Assembly (NCBI GenBank): GCA_944371445.1 | Contig: CALVXR010000010.1 | Location: 1-33,871 of the forward strand | Origin: an uncultured Bacilli bacterium | GTDB lineage: Bacteria > Bacillota_I > Bacilli_A > RF39 > UBA660 | Length of the DNA: 33,871 nucleotides | Direction of reading: 5' to 3' | Part shown: in pieces, positions 4,416 to 27,940 of the stretch | Layout: each line of letters starts with the position of its first letter | Position numbering within the stretch: position 1 is the first letter of the stretch | Made by a program: the position numbers and the translations under genes | Notes under the pieces: generated by a model | The model's input: only the letters and a program-made list of their open reading frames with translations | Database searches by the model: none | What the model was told of the DNA's origin: nothing

Positions 4416-6369
4416 ACTTGCATTTAGGAATGCTAAAAGAAGTATAAAAGATTATGTAATCTATTTGATTACTGTAACTTTAGCTTTTTCACTTATCTTT
4501 GCTTTTAATCTAGTAGGTAGTTCTAAAGAAGTTTTAGGTTTATCAGATGTAATGAATAACTTTAAATATTCTATGTATATAGTAAATGTTTTTATAGTAA
4601 TTGTAGTATGTTTTTTAATAAATTATACAATCAAATTTATGTTTAGTAAAAGAAGTAAAGAATTTGGAACTTATATGATACTTGGAATAAAGAAAAAGCA
4701 AATATCTAATTTATTTACCTTAGAAAATATAATATTAGGTTTCTTTTCTTTAATAATATCAATTCCTATAGGTTATATTTTTAGTCTTTTTATGTCTTTT
4801 ATTATAGTAAGTATTTTTGAACTACCTAACTCTGTTAAAATAGATTTTAATTTAAATTCTGTTTTACTACTTTTATTATATTTTTTAGTTATTTATATTT
4901 TTGTATTATTTCTAGCACGAAAAAGAATAAAGAAAATGAAAATATATGATTTATTATATTACGATAAACAAAACGAAAAGATTAAAAAAAGTAATAATAA
5001 AATAAGAAATATCATATTTATAATATCTTTAATATTAGGTATTTCAGCTCTTGTCTTATTCAGTAATCAGTTTACTGGAGTAGGACAGGAACCTTCTATG
5101 TTTATTATATTTATCTGTTTAATTTTAGCAATAATAAGTATTTATGGAGTAACTATAACTTTATCAGATTTTATTTTAAATATAGTTCTTAAAAATAAAA
5201 AATTAAAATATAGTAAAGATAATCTTTTTATAGCTAGAACATTTTCATCAAAAGTAAAAACAATGAGTTTTACTTTAGGTACTCTAACTTTTTTAATAAC
5301 TATCACTTTAATAGCGCTTAATATATCTAGTTTATTTAAAGGTATGTTTGATTACCAGTTAGAACTTAACTCTCCATATGATATAAGTGTTGAAGATGAT
5401 AAAAATAATTTAAATAATTATATAGATTTTATTTCAAAAAATTATACTATTGAAGATAAACTAATTTATGATAGTTATAAAGATCTTAATAATAATATAA
5501 GTAGTTCAGTAGATAATTATCCAGGATGGAGAAGTACTGATCAAATAATTAAGTTAAGTGATTATAATAAATTATTAGAACTTAAAGGTGATAAAAAAGT
5601 TACTCTTAATGAGGATGAATATATATTACATGTAACTAAAGAATTTCAAGATTTTATAAAAGATAGAGATAAAATAAAAGGAATTAAGTTATCAAATAAT
5701 ATAAAATTAAAACAAAAAGATTTTGTTAATAAAGGTTATACATATGCATGGGGAACTGGATATGGATTTGTAGTAGTAGTTCCAGATAAAGCAGTAGAAG
5801 GTTTAGAAGTAGAAGAATCACATTTAATAGTAAATACTAAAGAAGAAACAACAGAAAAATTTGCTAAAGAATTAGTAAAATTAAGAGAGCCTGATTTGTG
5901 TGAAAAAGATGAAAATGATTATATGGTCTGTTATTCACTTGCCAATGTTAGAGTAAGAGGTCAAGAGGAAGCTAATAATGATGGTTTTATAACAATAACA
6001 TCATTTGTATGTTTTTATATAGCTTTTGTCTTTATTGCAGTAACTGGTACTATTTTAGCTATTCAATCATTAAGTGATTCTACTAAATATAAATATCGTT
6101 ATAGTGTTTTAAGTAAGTTAGGAGTAGGTGATAATAAACTTTATAAAACAATTTTTAAACAGTTATTAATATTCTTTATATTTCCAATTATATATCCAGT
6201 TAATATAAGTTTTTCTGTAATTAACTCTATGAATAGAATTTTTAAAATAGCTTTAGTAAATGATACTATTTATATAAATTATTTTATAATTAATTTTCTT
6301 ATTTTCTTAATTATTTATATAATATATTTTACAGCAACATATTTTGGATTTAAAAGAAATATTGAATAG
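4405..6369 (+). CDS. bceB-like: BceB-like FtsX-type permease (654 aa)
   Basis: Membrane subunit of a BceAB transporter. It opens with the family's LSKLAFRNAKRSIKDYVIYLITVTLAFSL block and a first membrane helix. Ten hydrophobic helices are visible: four in the first 170 residues, further pairs near 200-260 and 290-310, a roughly 200-residue extracellular domain between about 312 and 530 (the peptide-sensing loop of the family), and three C-terminal helices. The KRSKEFGTYMILGIKKKQI cytoplasmic segment is the FtsX-domain signature. ATG at 4405 is preferred; an in-frame GTG lies at 4402, and both are served by GGAGGAG at 4389-4395 inside the end of the ATPase gene. The stop is TAG. It probably senses and releases lipid-II-binding peptides together with the adjacent kinase. 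Confidence 0.9.
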   Translation: MLSKLAFRNAKRSIKDYVIYLITVTLAFSLIFAFNLVGSSKEVLGLSDVMNNFKYSMYIVNVFIVIVVCFLINYTIKFMFSKRSKEFGTYMILGIKKKQISNLFTLENIILGFFSLIISIPIGYIFSLFMSFIIVSIFELPNSVKIDFNLNSVLLLLLYFLVIYIFVLFLARKRIKKMKIYDLLYYDKQNEKIKKSNNKIRNIIFIISLILGISALVLFSNQFTGVGQEPSMFIIFICLILAIISIYGVTITLSDFILNIVLKNKKLKYSKDNLFIARTFSSKVKTMSFTLGTLTFLITITLIALNISSLFKGMFDYQLELNSPYDISVEDDKNNLNNYIDFISKNYTIEDKLIYDSYKDLNNNISSSVDNYPGWRSTDQIIKLSDYNKLLELKGDKKVTLNEDEYILHVTKEFQDFIKDRDKIKGIKLSNNIKLKQKDFVNKGYTYAWGTGYGFVVVVPDKAVEGLEVEESHLIVNTKEETTEKFAKELVKLREPDLCEKDENDYMVCYSLANVRVRGQEEANNDGFITITSFVCFYIAFVFIAVTGTILAIQSLSDSTKYKYRYSVLSKLGVGDNKLYKTIFKQLLIFFIFPIIYPVNISFSVINSMNRIFKIALVNDTIYINYFIINFLIFLIIYIIYFTATYFGFKRNIE

Positions 6370-8963: not shown

Positions 8964-10931
8964 ATGAAAAAGAAAAATATGTTAAAAGTTATAATAGGAA
9001 TCTTTTTACTGATTATAATAGGAATTTTAATATTAGCTTTAGTATTAAATAAAAAATTAGAAAATAAAATAGAAGTTGATACTAAAAAAAGTTTAGTTAC
9101 TACACAATATGAAAAAGAAAGTAAATTTAAAACAGAAGGATATACAGTAGATAAGCCTAATATAATTTTAGATTCATATAAAGCATCACCACTTACAGCT
9201 TTAATACTTTTTGAAACAGAAGAAGAAGTAGAACCTGTTATTACTGTAAAAGGTAAAGATGAAAATACAACTTTTACTCATAAATTTAGTAAAAGTAAAA
9301 AACATTATATAGAAGTATATGGATTATATCCAGATAAAGAAAATGAAGTTGAAATAAAATTTAATACAAAAGGAAAAGAAATTATAAAAACATATAAAAT
9401 AAAAACAGATAAATTACCAGAAGACTTTATTTTACCAACGAGTGTAAAAGCAGATAAAGAAAAATTAAATAATGATTTATATTTTTTTACACCATCATCT
9501 AAAGGATACACCTGTGCATATGATGTTAATGGTGATGTTAGATGGTATTTAAGTAATTATGCTTTATGGGATAATACTAGACTTGAAAATGGGCATATGT
9601 TAATAAGTACAGAAAGATTAATTAATGACCCATATTATATGACAGGCCTATATGAAATTGATATGCTTGGTAAAATATATATGGAATATTCATTACCAGG
9701 TGGATATCATCACGATTACTTTGAAATGCCAAATGGAAATCTTTTAGTTGCTTCAGATGATTTTTATAATAGAAATGGAACAGTTGAAGATTACATTGTA
9801 GAGCTTGATAGAAAAACTGGTGAAATAGTAAAAACATTTGATTTAAAAGATATATTAAAAATGGAAGATGGAAAAAGTGAAAACTGGTCTAACTATGATT
9901 GGTTCCATAATAATTCAGTATGGTATGATGAAAAAACAAACTCTATTACATTATCAGGAAGACATCAAGATGCAGTTATAAATATAGATTATAAAACAGG
10001 AAAGCTAAAATGGATAATAGGTGATCCTACTTCTTGGAGTAAGGAATATCAAAAATATTTCTTTAAACCAATAGGTGATGATTTTGAATGGCAGTGGAGT
10101 CAGCATGCCGCTATGATAACACCAGAAGGATATGTATTTATCCTTGATAATGGTAATAATAAATCTAAAATAAAAGAAGAATATGTAAGTGCTGAAGATA
10201 GTTATACAAGAGGGGTTATGTATGAAATAAATACAGACGATATGACTATTAAACAAGTTTTTGAATATGGTAAAGAAAGAGGAAGTGACTTTTACTCACC
10301 ATATATATCAGATGTTGATTATTTAGATAAAGATCATTATATCGTTCATTCAGGTGGTATTGTATATGTAGATGGAAAAAACTCAAATCAACCAGCAGGA
10401 TTTAGTAAAAATACAACTTTAAAATCAGATACTGTAGAACTATTAAATGATGAAGTTATTTTTGAAATAGTATTACCAACTAATAATTATAGAGTTGAAA
10501 AACAAAGTTTATATAATGATTCAGAATTTAAGTTAGGTAAAGCAGAAAGAATTGGTAGTTTAGGGAAAACAAAAGAGACTGAAACAAAAGTAGGAGTATT
10601 AACTAAAGTAAAGGATATAGATGAAAAATATAAAAAATATAATATAAATTTTACAAAAGAAGAAGATAGACTAGTATTTAAAGGACAGTTTAAAAGAGGA
10701 CAAAATGTAAACGTTATATTATATAAAGATTTCAAAGCAGTATATTATAAACAAAGTATTAGTAAAAAACCATATACAGCTTTGTGTGTAGATATATTTA
10801 CAGAAGAAGAAAATAAAAATGGTCTTTCAATTACAAGATATATAAATAGCGAAGGCTTAAATGGTAAATATTCTATTTATGTAGAAATAGATGGAATACT
10901 GTACAATACAAAAGAATATGTAGAATTTTAA
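8964..10931 (+). CDS. assT-like: Membrane-anchored arylsulfate sulfotransferase, ASST family (655 aa)
   Basis: PAPS-independent sulfotransferase that moves sulfate from a phenolic sulfate ester to another phenol through a sulfo-histidine intermediate. A Lys-rich start and one helix (about 8-28) anchor it outside the membrane. Residues 65-150 form the N-terminal beta domain, and the rest is a beta-propeller with repeated blades. The family's active-site residues are recognisable: GGYHHDYFEMPNG (His249/250), DWFHNNSVW (His315), LSGRHQD (Arg333) and WQWSQHAAM (His381), matching His252, His356, Arg374 and His436 of the E. coli enzyme. Own promoter (8912-8940), ribosome binding site AAAGGAGAG, own terminator. 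No dsbA/dsbL partner is seen, and only one cysteine precedes the propeller core. Substrate unknown; host- or diet-derived phenolic sulfates would fit a gut bacterium. Confidence 0.88.
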   Translation: MKKKNMLKVIIGIFLLIIIGILILALVLNKKLENKIEVDTKKSLVTTQYEKESKFKTEGYTVDKPNIILDSYKASPLTALILFETEEEVEPVITVKGKDENTTFTHKFSKSKKHYIEVYGLYPDKENEVEIKFNTKGKEIIKTYKIKTDKLPEDFILPTSVKADKEKLNNDLYFFTPSSKGYTCAYDVNGDVRWYLSNYALWDNTRLENGHMLISTERLINDPYYMTGLYEIDMLGKIYMEYSLPGGYHHDYFEMPNGNLLVASDDFYNRNGTVEDYIVELDRKTGEIVKTFDLKDILKMEDGKSENWSNYDWFHNNSVWYDEKTNSITLSGRHQDAVINIDYKTGKLKWIIGDPTSWSKEYQKYFFKPIGDDFEWQWSQHAAMITPEGYVFILDNGNNKSKIKEEYVSAEDSYTRGVMYEINTDDMTIKQVFEYGKERGSDFYSPYISDVDYLDKDHYIVHSGGIVYVDGKNSNQPAGFSKNTTLKSDTVELLNDEVIFEIVLPTNNYRVEKQSLYNDSEFKLGKAERIGSLGKTKETETKVGVLTKVKDIDEKYKKYNINFTKEEDRLVFKGQFKRGQNVNVILYKDFKAVYYKQSISKKPYTALCVDIFTEEENKNGLSITRYINSEGLNGKYSIYVEIDGILYNTKEYVEF

Positions 10932-14584: not shown

Positions 14585-14639
14585 TAAACTGTCGTGCAGT
14601 TTAAACGTAAGTCCAGACAAAGATTTACGTTATTTTTTT
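14585..14639 (+). promoter_or_regulatory. Structured leader ending in a terminator-like hairpin before the MATE gene
   Basis: Two hairpins in tandem. The first is TAAACTG (14585-14591) / CAGTTTA (14597-14603) with loop TCGTG. The second is AACGTAA (14604-14610) / TTACGTT (14625-14631), whose loop holds GTC/GAC, followed by A and seven T (14633-14639). The ribosome binding site comes only after this T run, so the second hairpin would stop transcription before the gene: an attenuator arrangement. I cannot match it to a known riboswitch class. Because the first hairpin lies so near the -10, it may be an operator in DNA and not an RNA element. Confidence 0.5.
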
Positions 14640-14656
14640 GGATAGGGAGGATTTTT

Positions 14657-16618
14657 ATGAAAGAATTAGATTTAGGAAAAGAAAAAATTAATAAACTTTT
14701 ATTAGCGTTTTCTATTCCATGTATTATAAGTATGCTTATAAATTCTATCTATAATATTGTAGATCAGATATTTATAGGAAAAGGAGTAGGAACAATTGGA
14801 AATGCTGCTACGAATGTTATTTTTCCAGTTGTAATTATTTGTAATGCACTAGCACAATTAATAGGCAATGGATGTGCTGCTAACTTAAGTCTTCGTCTTG
14901 GTGAAGGAAATAAAGAAGAGGCTAAAAAAAGTATTGGTTCATCAGTCACTTTACTTTTTATATCATCTTTTATACTAGCTATTTTAGGTGAGATATTTTT
15001 ACCAGTATTAGTTAATATTTTTGGATGTACTAGTAGTGTTTATGATTCAGCTATTACATATGGTAGAATTATATTAATTGGAGCACCATTTATGATAATC
15101 TATACAGCTTTGTCATCTTTTATTAGAGCCGATGGTTCACCAAAATATTCAATGACTATATTAGTTATAGGAGCTGTAATTAATCTTATTCTAGATCCAA
15201 TATTTATTTTTCCATTAAAAATGGGAGTTGCTGGAGGAGCACTTGCTACTATAATAGGTCAGTTTGTGTCATTTATATTAGCTGTTTTATATCTAAGAAA
15301 AACAAAAACAATAAAATTAAAACTAAAAGATTTTGCTTTAAACAAATCAGTATTAAAAACAATGAGTTTAGGTGTATCAAGTTTTGTTACTCAAACAACC
15401 GTACTTGCACTTTTTGTAGTTATGAATAACTTAATGACTAAATATGGTGTTGATACTAAATATGGAGCAGATATACCACTTTCTGTATATGGAATAATTT
15501 CTAAAATTAATAATATATACATATCTAGTGTTTTAGGAATAGCAATTGGTGCACAACCAATTATGGGATTTAATTATGGTGCTAGAAATTATAAAAGAGT
15601 AAAAGAAACTATTAAAAAAGTTTTATTTATAGGTCTAATTATTGGATTTGTATTTAATATTGTTATTCTAGTTTTCCCAAAACCAATAATTTCTATATTT
15701 ATTACTAAAACTGATCCAAACTATGATTTATTTATGGAATTTGCAGTTAAGTTTGCTAGAATATTTTTATTAGTATGTGCGATAAATGCTTTAGAATTAT
15801 GTTCCGGTATTATTATTCAGTCACTTGGAAATGTAAAAAAGGCAACACTTACAACATTTACAAGACAAATAATATTATTTATTCCAATAGCCTTTATTTT
15901 ATGTCATTTTAAAGGATTATATGGAGCTTTATATGCTGGACCTATTGCAGATATTTTATGTTTTATATTTATTTTCTTCTTACTTAGAAGTGAATATAAG
16001 AAGTTAAAAGAAGATAAGGTAGAATATGAAGTTACAGAAAACATAAATGTAGATACTAACTTTAAAACAGATTATGTTATTACAATAAACCGTGAATATG
16101 GTAGTGGTGGAAGATATGTTGGAAAAATACTATCAGAAATGCTAAAAGTGCCATGTTATGATAAAGAAATAATATCTTTATCAGCAGAAAAATCAGGATT
16201 AGATAATGATTTTATTAAAGAAAATGAAGAAAGTAGAAAATCTTATTATGGAACTGATAATGATATTTTTATAGCAGAATCTAAAGTTATTAAAAATATA
16301 GCTAAAAATCCATCTATTATTATAGGAAGATGTTCAAATTATGTACTTAGAAATAATAAAAAAATAATAAATGTCTTTTTATATAGTGATATGAAAAATA
16401 AAGAAAAAAGAGTTACAAAATATTATAATATTCCAAAAGAAAATGCTAAAAAGCAAATAGAAAAAATAAATAAACAAAGAGCTAAATATTATAAATTTTA
16501 TACTGGATGTAAATGGAATGACATAGAAAACTATGATATAGCTTTAAATACAGATGTGTTAGGTGTAAATAAAACAGCAGAAGTATTAAAAGAATTTATT
16601 TTATCTAAAAACAATTAA
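14657..16618 (+). CDS. MATE efflux transporter fused to a cytidylate-kinase-like domain (653 aa)
   Basis: Residues 1-450 form a 12-helix MATE antiporter (LLLAFSIPCIISMLINSIYNIVDQIFIG at the start, IRADGSPKYSM, LGIAIGAQPIMGFNYGARNYKRVK at the middle). After a 20-residue charged linker, residues 472-653 form a cytidylate-kinase-like P-loop domain: DYVITINREYGSGGRYVGK, VPCYDKEII, then SIIIGRCSNYVL and an RVTKYY segment. ATG 14657 is preferred because GGGAGG lies at 14645-14650; reading further upstream would run into the leader hairpin. The kinase-like part sits at the C-terminus and should be cytoplasmic. Its substrate is unknown. It could phosphorylate a nucleotide-like compound handled by the transporter, or regulate transport. 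A leader with an attenuator-like hairpin precedes the gene. Confidence 0.88.
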   Translation: MKELDLGKEKINKLLLAFSIPCIISMLINSIYNIVDQIFIGKGVGTIGNAATNVIFPVVIICNALAQLIGNGCAANLSLRLGEGNKEEAKKSIGSSVTLLFISSFILAILGEIFLPVLVNIFGCTSSVYDSAITYGRIILIGAPFMIIYTALSSFIRADGSPKYSMTILVIGAVINLILDPIFIFPLKMGVAGGALATIIGQFVSFILAVLYLRKTKTIKLKLKDFALNKSVLKTMSLGVSSFVTQTTVLALFVVMNNLMTKYGVDTKYGADIPLSVYGIISKINNIYISSVLGIAIGAQPIMGFNYGARNYKRVKETIKKVLFIGLIIGFVFNIVILVFPKPIISIFITKTDPNYDLFMEFAVKFARIFLLVCAINALELCSGIIIQSLGNVKKATLTTFTRQIILFIPIAFILCHFKGLYGALYAGPIADILCFIFIFFLLRSEYKKLKEDKVEYEVTENINVDTNFKTDYVITINREYGSGGRYVGKILSEMLKVPCYDKEIISLSAEKSGLDNDFIKENEESRKSYYGTDNDIFIAESKVIKNIAKNPSIIIGRCSNYVLRNNKKIINVFLYSDMKNKEKRVTKYYNIPKENAKKQIEKINKQRAKYYKFYTGCKWNDIENYDIALNTDVLGVNKTAEVLKEFILSKNN

Positions 16619-24636: not shown

Positions 24637-24665
24637 TTGAAAATAATATATAACAAGTATATAAT
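24637..24665 (+). promoter_or_regulatory. Promoter of the 1071-aa gene
   Basis: TTGAAA (24637-24642), 17-base spacer, TATAAT (24660-24665). Strong by both boxes. Confidence 0.7.
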
Positions 24666-24697: not shown

Positions 24698-24724
24698 ATA
24701 TAAAAAGAGAGAAGGATATAAGTA

Positions 24725-27700
24725 ATGAAAAATTTTTTAAGTATCGTATTAAAAAATAGGGGTTATATATTTTGTAAAGAAGGATTATTTAATAAAAATG
24801 GTCTAAAAATTACAAATGCAATAATTACATCAAAGCTTCCTTCTAATTTAATTATGAATGAGAAACAAAAAGACATAATAAGAAAAGTTTTTATAAATAG
24901 CAATAATATATTTAATGAAGATACACCAGATTTTATTAAAGGTGATATTTCTTGTATGAAAGCATCTATCAGTAGAAATGTAGATAGTATTAAATATATA
25001 GATAAAATTCTAAATGAAATAAAAAACTATATTATTATAGAAGCTATTAAACAAAAATATGTAATAAGAGAGAACAGTGATTACTTTTTAAGGATGAATT
25101 ATGAAGTTATTTTAAATTCAATAAGAATAGATGCACAATCAGCCAATTATTCTATTTGGTTTTATCTTAACGATAATGAAAAAGAAAAGTTAATTTCTGA
25201 ATTGCTACAAAGTGATTATGTTTTATCAAAAAAGCATAATCGTTATTTATATAATAACAGAGATATTGTTCTAAATTCTATAAAAAAAGATATTAATAGT
25301 TTTAAATATGCTAGTAAAAAATTTATTGATGATGAAGAAATTTTTAATTACTTATTTTTAAATGGATATAATTTTGATAAAGATACTTTATCTTTAAAGA
25401 AAATTAAATGGCTTCAGAATGAAGATTTCTCGAATCTTGTATTTAAATCATTAGGTATATATAAAGAAACATCAAGTCCACTTTTTTGTCAAAGATTTAG
25501 TAAAATTTTTAGTGATATGGTTAATGTTAAACCTACAATTAAAATGTTTTCTAATGTGTTTGAATTAATTGCTGAAGAAAAATGGAGAAAACATAAAAAT
25601 AATAATTTTTATACTAATATATTTGGAAAAATTTGCTCTGCGTTAAAAAATGCTGATAATTTTGAAAATGCAATAAATAATACATTTTTTATAAATGAAA
25701 TGAAAGAAACTTTAGGAACTAAATATTATAGTTTATATAAAGCAATGAATGAATATTTTAATATATATCATAGTGACATAGATGATAAAATAGATAAATT
25801 AAGTGAGTGTAAAAATACAATAGCGTCTCTATCAGCTCTTTATATATCTATTAAAAAAGAAAAATATAAAAAGGAAATAATAAATAAAAATAATAAATGG
25901 TTAAAAAGATTTTTCATATTAAACACAAACAATCCAGTTATCTATAATAGAATACTGAGTGAAAGAAGAAAAGAAAAATTTAGAAATTTTTATAGAAGAG
26001 GAAAAAATGATATTAGAATTTTTCTTGGTGAATTAGAAGAAAAATATAGTACTTATATAGACCAAAAAATTGTTAGAAAATTAATATATAATTTTATTAG
26101 AAATCAGTATTCTAAAATAGAAGATATTATTGATAAACCTTTAGGATATAATGAATATGAAAGATATAAAAAGGCTATTAAATTGATTAATAGATTAAAT
26201 AGTAATTATATAAAATATGCTAGTTTAGAAGTTCATAATTATAAAGATATAATTGTTTATGATAGTGCAAAAAAAGAATATATTTATACTGGAACTATTT
26301 TTGAAGATAATAAGATAGAAGAGTTTAATTATTATAAAAAAATAGCTAATACTTTTGATAAAATTAAAAGAGAAATAACTATAAAGATAAATGAAATACA
26401 AATAGAAAATACTGATATTAATTCAAAGTTATATGATAAAAATATACCATTTACGGATGAATATTACGAATTTAATCTAGAATATTTAGAACATTTCGAT
26501 ATTGTAGATTTAATCAAAGAATGTTTAAATGATAGAACAGAATTTTATGAGGATAGTTTTATTGACGATGAATCTTATAAATATTTATATGATTTATTAA
26601 TTAATAATGGGTTACTTTGGTTATTACTTTTTCAAAAAAATGAAGTAAATTGTATGTTAGGATTAAACTATATTAATCCTAATGAAATAGTAAGTTTATT
26701 TGATAACACATTTAAAATTATTAATTTATCAAATAATATTAATTTACTAAATTCATATGATATATTTCTTATTAATAGAATATATAAGTATGGTGACGGA
26801 AATTCTATAGCAACTTTAGGTATAGATATAATGCAAAGATTATGTAAAAGTACCTCACATACATCTAATAAAGTTAATAAGATTATTACAATAGCAAGAG
26901 ATTTAGTTTGTGAAATGAGTAAAAGAAAAGAATCAACTGTACCTTATGTTTATGGGCAGTATTTAAATTATAAATATTCTATGTATGATTCACAAGATGC
27001 TGATTTATTACTTTGTGGAATAAAAACAGATTCATGTTTTAAAATAGGTGGAACAGATAATGATTTTATGCATTATTGTGCTCTTAATAAAAATGGATTT
27101 ATAATAAAAATTACAGATATAGATAATAATTTTATTGCTAGAGCATCAGGATTTAGACATGGAAATTGTATATTTGTAAATCAGCTAAGAACAATTTATG
27201 ATGAAGGTGGAAATGAATACACAGGAAAGTCTTATTATGAAAAAAAAGACATAATAGAAACTTTTAAAGTTGCATGTCAGAATATAATAGATGTATCACA
27301 AAATAATAAAGAAGAACTTGATAAAATTGATTTTGCATTTGCTACACAAAGTTATATATTAGATAATTATCCTTCTAATGTTTCATATGAACTACAAGAT
27401 TATATTGGATGTTCACCAATGGATCTTTCAAGTAGTAACTGGAAAGAGTTTGTTCTAAGTACAAAAAATTTACAAACTATAGAAGATTATTATGATTATT
27501 TTATGACTGATTATGGTGATTATAAGCTCATTTGTATAGCAAATTCAAAAAATAATGATAAAATAGAAGTAACTGATTTAAATTTAAAAGATGTAAAGGC
27601 ACTTTACGAACGAAAAAGGAATGAAATTATTGTATCAACTTCACAAGATAAAGTATCTACCGATAAAGTAAATAAGATAAGTGGTATAAAATCTTATTTT

Positions 27701-27940
27701 GATAATAGTGAGTTTGAAATAGTTAAAATTCCTAAACATGCTCTTATATTAACTGGAGATAACTGGTATATTATTTATAAAAATGGTATTATAAATTCAT
27801 GTTTACTTGATTTTGATGAAAGTGCTAAAGTGGAATTTAACTTTATTAAAAATATATTAGAAAATATTAAAATAATATCAACAGAAACTATAGATGTTTC
27901 TAAATTAAAGGAAAAAGTTAAATCATTAAAATATAAGTAA
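24725..27940 (+). CDS. Large protein of unknown function (1071 aa) with DUF4116-like repeats
   Basis: N-terminal residues 70-215 hold three copies of a helical repeat resembling DUF4116: DISCMKASISRNVDSIKYI (about 74-92), YEVILNSIRIDAQSANYSI (126-144) and RDIVLNSIKKDINSFKYAS (179-197). Residues 220-740 are helical, Lys/Asn/Ile-rich, with no motif that I recognise. Residues 757-880 are different and compact: GIKTDSCFKIGG (Ser770, Cys771, Gly775, Gly776), then GFIIKITDIDNNFIARASGFRHGNCIFVNQL. This resembles, from memory, a GNAT-like module in which TxxCxxIGG is followed by D-x-x-G-x-x-x-A-x-S; I cannot prove this. No signal peptide or membrane helix, so cytoplasmic. The ribosome binding site AGAAGGAT is good. 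It has a strong promoter and is divergent from the Nudix gene. Function unknown. Confidence 0.72.
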   Translation: MKNFLSIVLKNRGYIFCKEGLFNKNGLKITNAIITSKLPSNLIMNEKQKDIIRKVFINSNNIFNEDTPDFIKGDISCMKASISRNVDSIKYIDKILNEIKNYIIIEAIKQKYVIRENSDYFLRMNYEVILNSIRIDAQSANYSIWFYLNDNEKEKLISELLQSDYVLSKKHNRYLYNNRDIVLNSIKKDINSFKYASKKFIDDEEIFNYLFLNGYNFDKDTLSLKKIKWLQNEDFSNLVFKSLGIYKETSSPLFCQRFSKIFSDMVNVKPTIKMFSNVFELIAEEKWRKHKNNNFYTNIFGKICSALKNADNFENAINNTFFINEMKETLGTKYYSLYKAMNEYFNIYHSDIDDKIDKLSECKNTIASLSALYISIKKEKYKKEIINKNNKWLKRFFILNTNNPVIYNRILSERRKEKFRNFYRRGKNDIRIFLGELEEKYSTYIDQKIVRKLIYNFIRNQYSKIEDIIDKPLGYNEYERYKKAIKLINRLNSNYIKYASLEVHNYKDIIVYDSAKKEYIYTGTIFEDNKIEEFNYYKKIANTFDKIKREITIKINEIQIENTDINSKLYDKNIPFTDEYYEFNLEYLEHFDIVDLIKECLNDRTEFYEDSFIDDESYKYLYDLLINNGLLWLLLFQKNEVNCMLGLNYINPNEIVSLFDNTFKIINLSNNINLLNSYDIFLINRIYKYGDGNSIATLGIDIMQRLCKSTSHTSNKVNKIITIARDLVCEMSKRKESTVPYVYGQYLNYKYSMYDSQDADLLLCGIKTDSCFKIGGTDNDFMHYCALNKNGFIIKITDIDNNFIARASGFRHGNCIFVNQLRTIYDEGGNEYTGKSYYEKKDIIETFKVACQNIIDVSQNNKEELDKIDFAFATQSYILDNYPSNVSYELQDYIGCSPMDLSSSNWKEFVLSTKNLQTIEDYYDYFMTDYGDYKLICIANSKNNDKIEVTDLNLKDVKALYERKRNEIIVSTSQDKVSTDKVNKISGIKSYFDNSEFEIVKIPKHALILTGDNWYIIYKNGIINSCLLDFDESAKVEFNFIKNILENIKIISTETIDVSKLKEKVKSLKYK

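Follow-up and report, generated by a model that had tools for sequence, protein, structure and literature searches.

The gene and its start signals

The window analysed here, a stretch of 33,871 nt from an uncultured Bacilli bacterium, contains a large open reading frame (ORF) for which the first-pass annotation had found no role, and the question raised by this locus is what kind of protein it encodes. The ORF and its putative start signals are as follows:

24637..24665, + strand: promoter-like site TTGAAA-17-TATAAT, matching 11 of 12 positions, the best of the region
24710..24715, + strand: AGAAGG, resembling a ribosome-binding site and 9 nt upstream of the ATG, as seen in the sequence itself
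24725..27940, + strand: ORF of 1071 aa with an ATG start and full-length relatives at 29–43% identity

The coordinates, length and frame previously assigned to the ORF are exact, and the ORF is real. It was also credited with a strong promoter of its own, and the site listed above is indeed the best candidate, but the region, which is AT-rich, contains no excess of promoter-like sites (40 in total versus 45.5 from shuffles), and the 'strong promoter' is therefore to be read as a consensus match only. As judged from pairs of close relatives, the gene is under purifying selection, since dN/dS was approximately 0.1–0.5 in both halves. The protein has no strongly hydrophobic segment (best 19-residue Kyte-Doolittle mean 0.97), in line with the earlier statement that no signal peptide or transporter was seen.

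Elsewhere in the window, Pfam matches showed the unusual pairing of a MatE transporter with a cytidylate-kinase-like domain in a single protein of 674 aa (14594–16618, + strand), and an arylsulfotransferase (ASST) gene (8964–10931, + strand, E 1e-101) was present in this genome of 1.2 Mb. A pair of 655-aa proteins that looked like a duplication was found not to be one.

The C-terminal domain has a predicted GNAT-like fold

An AlphaFold2 model of the protein, based on 34 sequences (the protein and 33 relatives), had a mean pLDDT of 85.5, with low confidence for the first 40 residues. Together with the repeats and conserved positions described below, it divides the protein into the following parts:

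24929..25360, + strand: three DUF4116-like helical repeats (residues ~69–109, 120–162 and 173–212), from their cores, a weak Pfam match for the third and the helices of the model
25361..26929, + strand: all-helical middle region (residues 213–735), from AlphaFold2 secondary structure with pLDDT mostly 80–93
26942..27877, + strand: C-terminal alpha/beta domain of GNAT-like fold (residues 740–1051), from AlphaFold2, Foldseek and conservation
27035..27037, + strand: codon of Cys771, invariant in 65/65 aligned members

A compact C-terminal domain had been proposed at residues 757–880. Such a domain is predicted with high confidence (pLDDT 87 and pTM 0.87 when folded alone), but these limits are too narrow, and it extends from approximately residue 740 to 1051, including the TDSCFKIGG (from residue 768) and ARASGFRHGN (from residue 805) motifs. 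When the domain was compared with the PDB using Foldseek, the match list consisted almost throughout of GNAT-fold proteins, with Gcn5 as best match (E 1.3e-3, probability 0.99), and with VipF, NatD, SpeG, RimI, PanZ (4cry) and leucyl/phenylalanyl-tRNA-protein transferase among the others; the last of these we take to be a protein of GNAT-like fold that transfers aminoacyl groups. Target-normalised TM-scores reached a maximum of about 0.5, with PanZ among the best (0.51). The earlier impression of a GNAT-like domain is thus supported by the composition of the list, though with borderline E-values; no PDB match fell below E 0.001, and hence 'GNAT-like' is the right strength of wording for this predicted fold. 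There was no Pfam acetyltransferase match to the 1071-aa protein, and hhalign comparison of the domain profile with the ordinary GNATs of the same genome was not significant.

An invariant cysteine and a missing acyl-CoA signature

The cysteine that had looked conserved from the single sequence proved to be invariant: Gly765 and Cys771 are present in all 65 aligned family members, while Pro740 and Arg811 are each kept in 63, Asn814 in 55 (with Asp in nine more) and Asp929 in 54. In the predicted secondary structure Cys771 is located in the loop that connects helices 1 and 2 of the domain, and Arg811 to Asn814 lie at the turn preceding strand 4. In GNATs, the loop connecting helices 1 and 2 borders the substrate site.

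We scored the acyl-CoA signature as R/Q-x-x-G-x-G/A between strand 4 and helix 3. In the expected stretch it was missing from all but one of the 65 family members and from all 34 close ones, as compared to its presence in 7/9 ordinary GNATs of the same genome, which served as control, and in 1.7% of shuffles.

Helical repeats precede the domain

The N-terminal part had been described as three repeats resembling DUF4116. The repeats are real, with the core S[IL]xx[DN]xxS[IFA]xY at residues 81, 132 and 185 (spacing 51 and 53), and three copies of this core were not obtained in any of 20000 shuffles of the sequence, but the stricter pattern originally proposed fits the third copy only (at residue 180). 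The likeness to DUF4116 is weakly supported: Pfam DUF4116 (PF13475) matches residues 178–206, corresponding to the third repeat alone, at E 4.5e-4 and 20.2 bits, which is below the Pfam gathering cut-off of 24.9. Eight of the 34 aligned proteins have a DUF4116 match at E ≤ 0.01, and the relatives contain from zero to four copies of a loose repeat pattern. The model is nearly all-helical from approximately residue 45 to 735. An alpha-solenoid model of the DUF4116 family has been published (PMC8078820).

A lineage-restricted family in reduced genomes

The C-terminal domain was present in 77 of 243 sampled genomes from the same taxonomic family, and in a sample of 392 genomes from the phylum the matches came from six members of that family and from a single outside genome, the latter match being weak and running across a stop codon. 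Five genomes of the same genus were searched for a close relative of the full 1071-aa protein and contained none, and a second, divergent family member is encoded in the same genome on another contig (C35). Most family proteins have a length of 600 to 1900 aa and carry the domain at the C-terminus or close to it, behind varied N-termini, and adjacent copies were seen at several loci (L056, L057, L071, L074, L091/L126, L110 and L112). The relatives originate from metagenome-assembled genomes labelled as uncultured Bacilli, Tenericutes, Erysipelotrichaceae and others, and two of the record titles mention the goat jejunum or ileum. Homology extends to a second subfamily, whose motif is TDCCQ...AQSWVWRN...FDNIE (CCQ subfamily) and which aligns in the same register by hhalign (96%, E 4e-9).

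Pfam, NCBIfam, PHROGs and PADLOC all lack a model that spans the shared domain as it occurs in the 1071-aa protein, which bears out the earlier view that no known family accounts for this protein, and matches to these libraries among the relatives were few and isolated. The domain defines a large, diverse and lineage-restricted family, with a predicted GNAT-like fold, that is absent from the libraries searched. Roughly one in three sampled genomes of the taxonomic family is a carrier, mostly 0.8–1.7 Mb in size and with one or more of these genes, and genes this large take up an appreciable part of so limited a coding capacity.

A metallopeptidase gene recurs next to family members

The divergently oriented Nudix gene in the window had led to the suggestion that a Nudix hydrolase and the 1071-aa protein act on a common nucleotide-linked metabolite. 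This link is to be discarded, as only 1/91 loci, the window's own, had an ORF with a Nudix motif within three genes of the family member, some of these loci being the same contig in two collections. Close relatives of the window's Nudix gene (76–77% identical) occur in two other genomes (G002 and G008), where the genes next to them do not belong to the family.

What recurs instead in the window's subfamily is a co-oriented partner gene immediately upstream, which encodes an M20/M28/M42-like metallopeptidase with the motifs HMDTV and G-[GA]-DDRCG, with weak Pfam matches below the cut-off. It overlaps the family gene by 4–47 bp or ends 21 bp before it, and adjoins it in intact form on seven contigs (L099, L103 with the peptidase gene at 4928–5830, L105, L109, L110, L113 and L114, the last identical to L086). 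A 79-aa fragment of it remains at L102, and at L101 it is located three genes away. Its carriers are spread across the tree, none of the 213 ORFs of control regions matched it by motif, and the window's genome contained no match to it.

Members of the CCQ subfamily are directly followed on the same strand by another gene family in 11 loci (including L056, L057, L058 and L063–L067), with products of 161–344 aa. Both tested members contained an aldehyde-dehydrogenase-like segment, which is not long enough to form a complete enzyme of this type. At L113 and L114 (= L086), where the peptidase gene precedes the family member, an ASCH-domain gene directly follows it, and related ankyrin-looking repeat proteins are encoded beside family members at L055, L062, L077 and L103, with the one tested lacking a Pfam match. 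The other neighbours are mostly unrelated housekeeping genes, and few are defence-like.

Possible function of the protein

Our preferred reading, to which we assign a probability of about 0.4, is that the 1071-aa protein is a cytoplasmic enzyme in which the helical rod binds a macromolecule and the C-terminal GNAT-like domain transfers a small group. The helical-repeat solenoid would bind a particular macromolecule and present the target to the C-terminal domain, which may then transfer an acyl or aminoacyl group to it, with Cys771 and Arg811 as putative active-site residues. The donor would not be bound in the usual CoA-dependent manner, possible candidates being an aminoacyl-tRNA, a carrier protein and a Cys771-bound thioester, while the adjoining M20/M28/M42-like peptidase of several relatives may reverse the modification or prepare for it. 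If one shared tool is combined with exchangeable recognition parts, the C-terminal part is expected to be the more conserved, and mean identity to the relatives was indeed 46% for this part versus 30% for the N-terminal part. We counted in favour of the enzyme the list of GNATs from Foldseek, the confidence of the model, the conservation of Cys771, Gly765 and Arg811, the varied N-termini, purifying selection and the recurrent peptidase. Counted against it were the lack of PDB matches at E <0.001, of a Pfam acetyltransferase match and of the acyl-CoA motif, the non-significant profile comparison with GNATs, and the lack of the peptidase in the window's genome. A much bolder version, in which these proteins form a new enzyme family that uses a GNAT-like fold without CoA by means of the invariant cysteine, as a common tool behind changeable rods, with the peptidase as counter-enzyme and in use in one gut lineage with small genomes, we regard as quite improbable.

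The main rival is that the domain is a non-catalytic binding module of GNAT fold, comparable to PanZ acting on PanD, which would sense a ligand or partner and make the whole protein a scaffold or regulator. The absence of the acyl-CoA motif and the high rank of PanZ in target-normalised TM-score both agree with this, but an invariant Cys771 and a near-invariant polar Arg811 in such divergent proteins fit chemistry better, and we consider such a module rather unlikely.

A distant tie to the PcfJ-like proteins of plasmids and phages is suggested by a fold search of viral proteins, which returned several of these proteins (best E 0.02, probability 0.82; another with TMt 0.54), and by a non-significant profile alignment with PcfJ-like PF14284 in which the cysteines of both families are in register. 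Furthermore, a phage protein has the core in common with the family: ORF68 of Microcystis phage MaMV-DC (AGR48633.1, L129:3573–5666), a hypothetical protein of 697 aa with the CCQ/AQSW/FDN core, matches the CCQ subfamily at E 1e-6, and four viral contigs encode relatives that are 84% identical to it. That the 1071-aa protein belongs to the PcfJ-like proteins or is related to them, being now chromosomal and retaining the role of PcfJ, is nevertheless quite improbable: membership of PF14284 by sequence was rejected, with profile comparisons and Pfam both negative, PF14284 found nothing in the window's genome, and one family query gave no plasmid relatives. Phage records contained no relative when the whole 1071-aa protein was used as query, and two family profiles found none in viral contigs.

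A role as anti-phage defence effector, with the rod sensing a phage component and the C-terminal domain modifying a host target, would be in keeping with the patchy distribution (77/243 genomes), the tandem genes and the divergent paralogues. It is very unlikely, as there was no PADLOC model for the 1071-aa protein, only single weak hits (E ≥ 0.013) were obtained among 35 family members, the neighbourhood is mostly housekeeping with few defence-like genes (in a PADLOC scan of the family loci alone), and there is no sign of positive selection. Export of the protein with an action on host or protist cells, for which the animal gut origin of part of the relatives (from record titles) and the structural match to the Legionella acetyltransferase VipF could be cited, is hardly credible given that the protein lacks a hydrophobic or signal-like segment and that the GNAT matches are general rather than VipF-specific.

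With domain limits, a predicted fold, an invariant cysteine and, in relatives, an adjoining partner enzyme now defined, the function of the family is directly testable.

Comparison with known systems

The N-terminal part resembles DUF4116 repeats (PF13475) in its period of 51–53 residues, in the sequence of the third repeat and in its helical, solenoid-like model, and differs in remaining below the cut-off and in that only three repeats are present and the long helical stretch after them has no known family. With the PcfJ-like proteins (PF14284) the protein shares a possible fold match and, in that non-significant alignment, the register of the conserved cysteine, whereas significant sequence or profile matches to them were absent. 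MaMV-DC ORF68 has a different N-terminus and no Arg at the position of Arg811, but has in common the C-terminal core with its Cys motif. Compared to the GNAT superfamily (Gcn5, NatD, SpeG, PanZ and leucyl/phenylalanyl-tRNA-protein transferase), the C-terminal domain has an invariant cysteine instead of the acyl-CoA signature, an extra end segment (to residue 1051) and no detectable sequence relation, but it shares with these proteins the predicted order of strands and helices and the overall fold.
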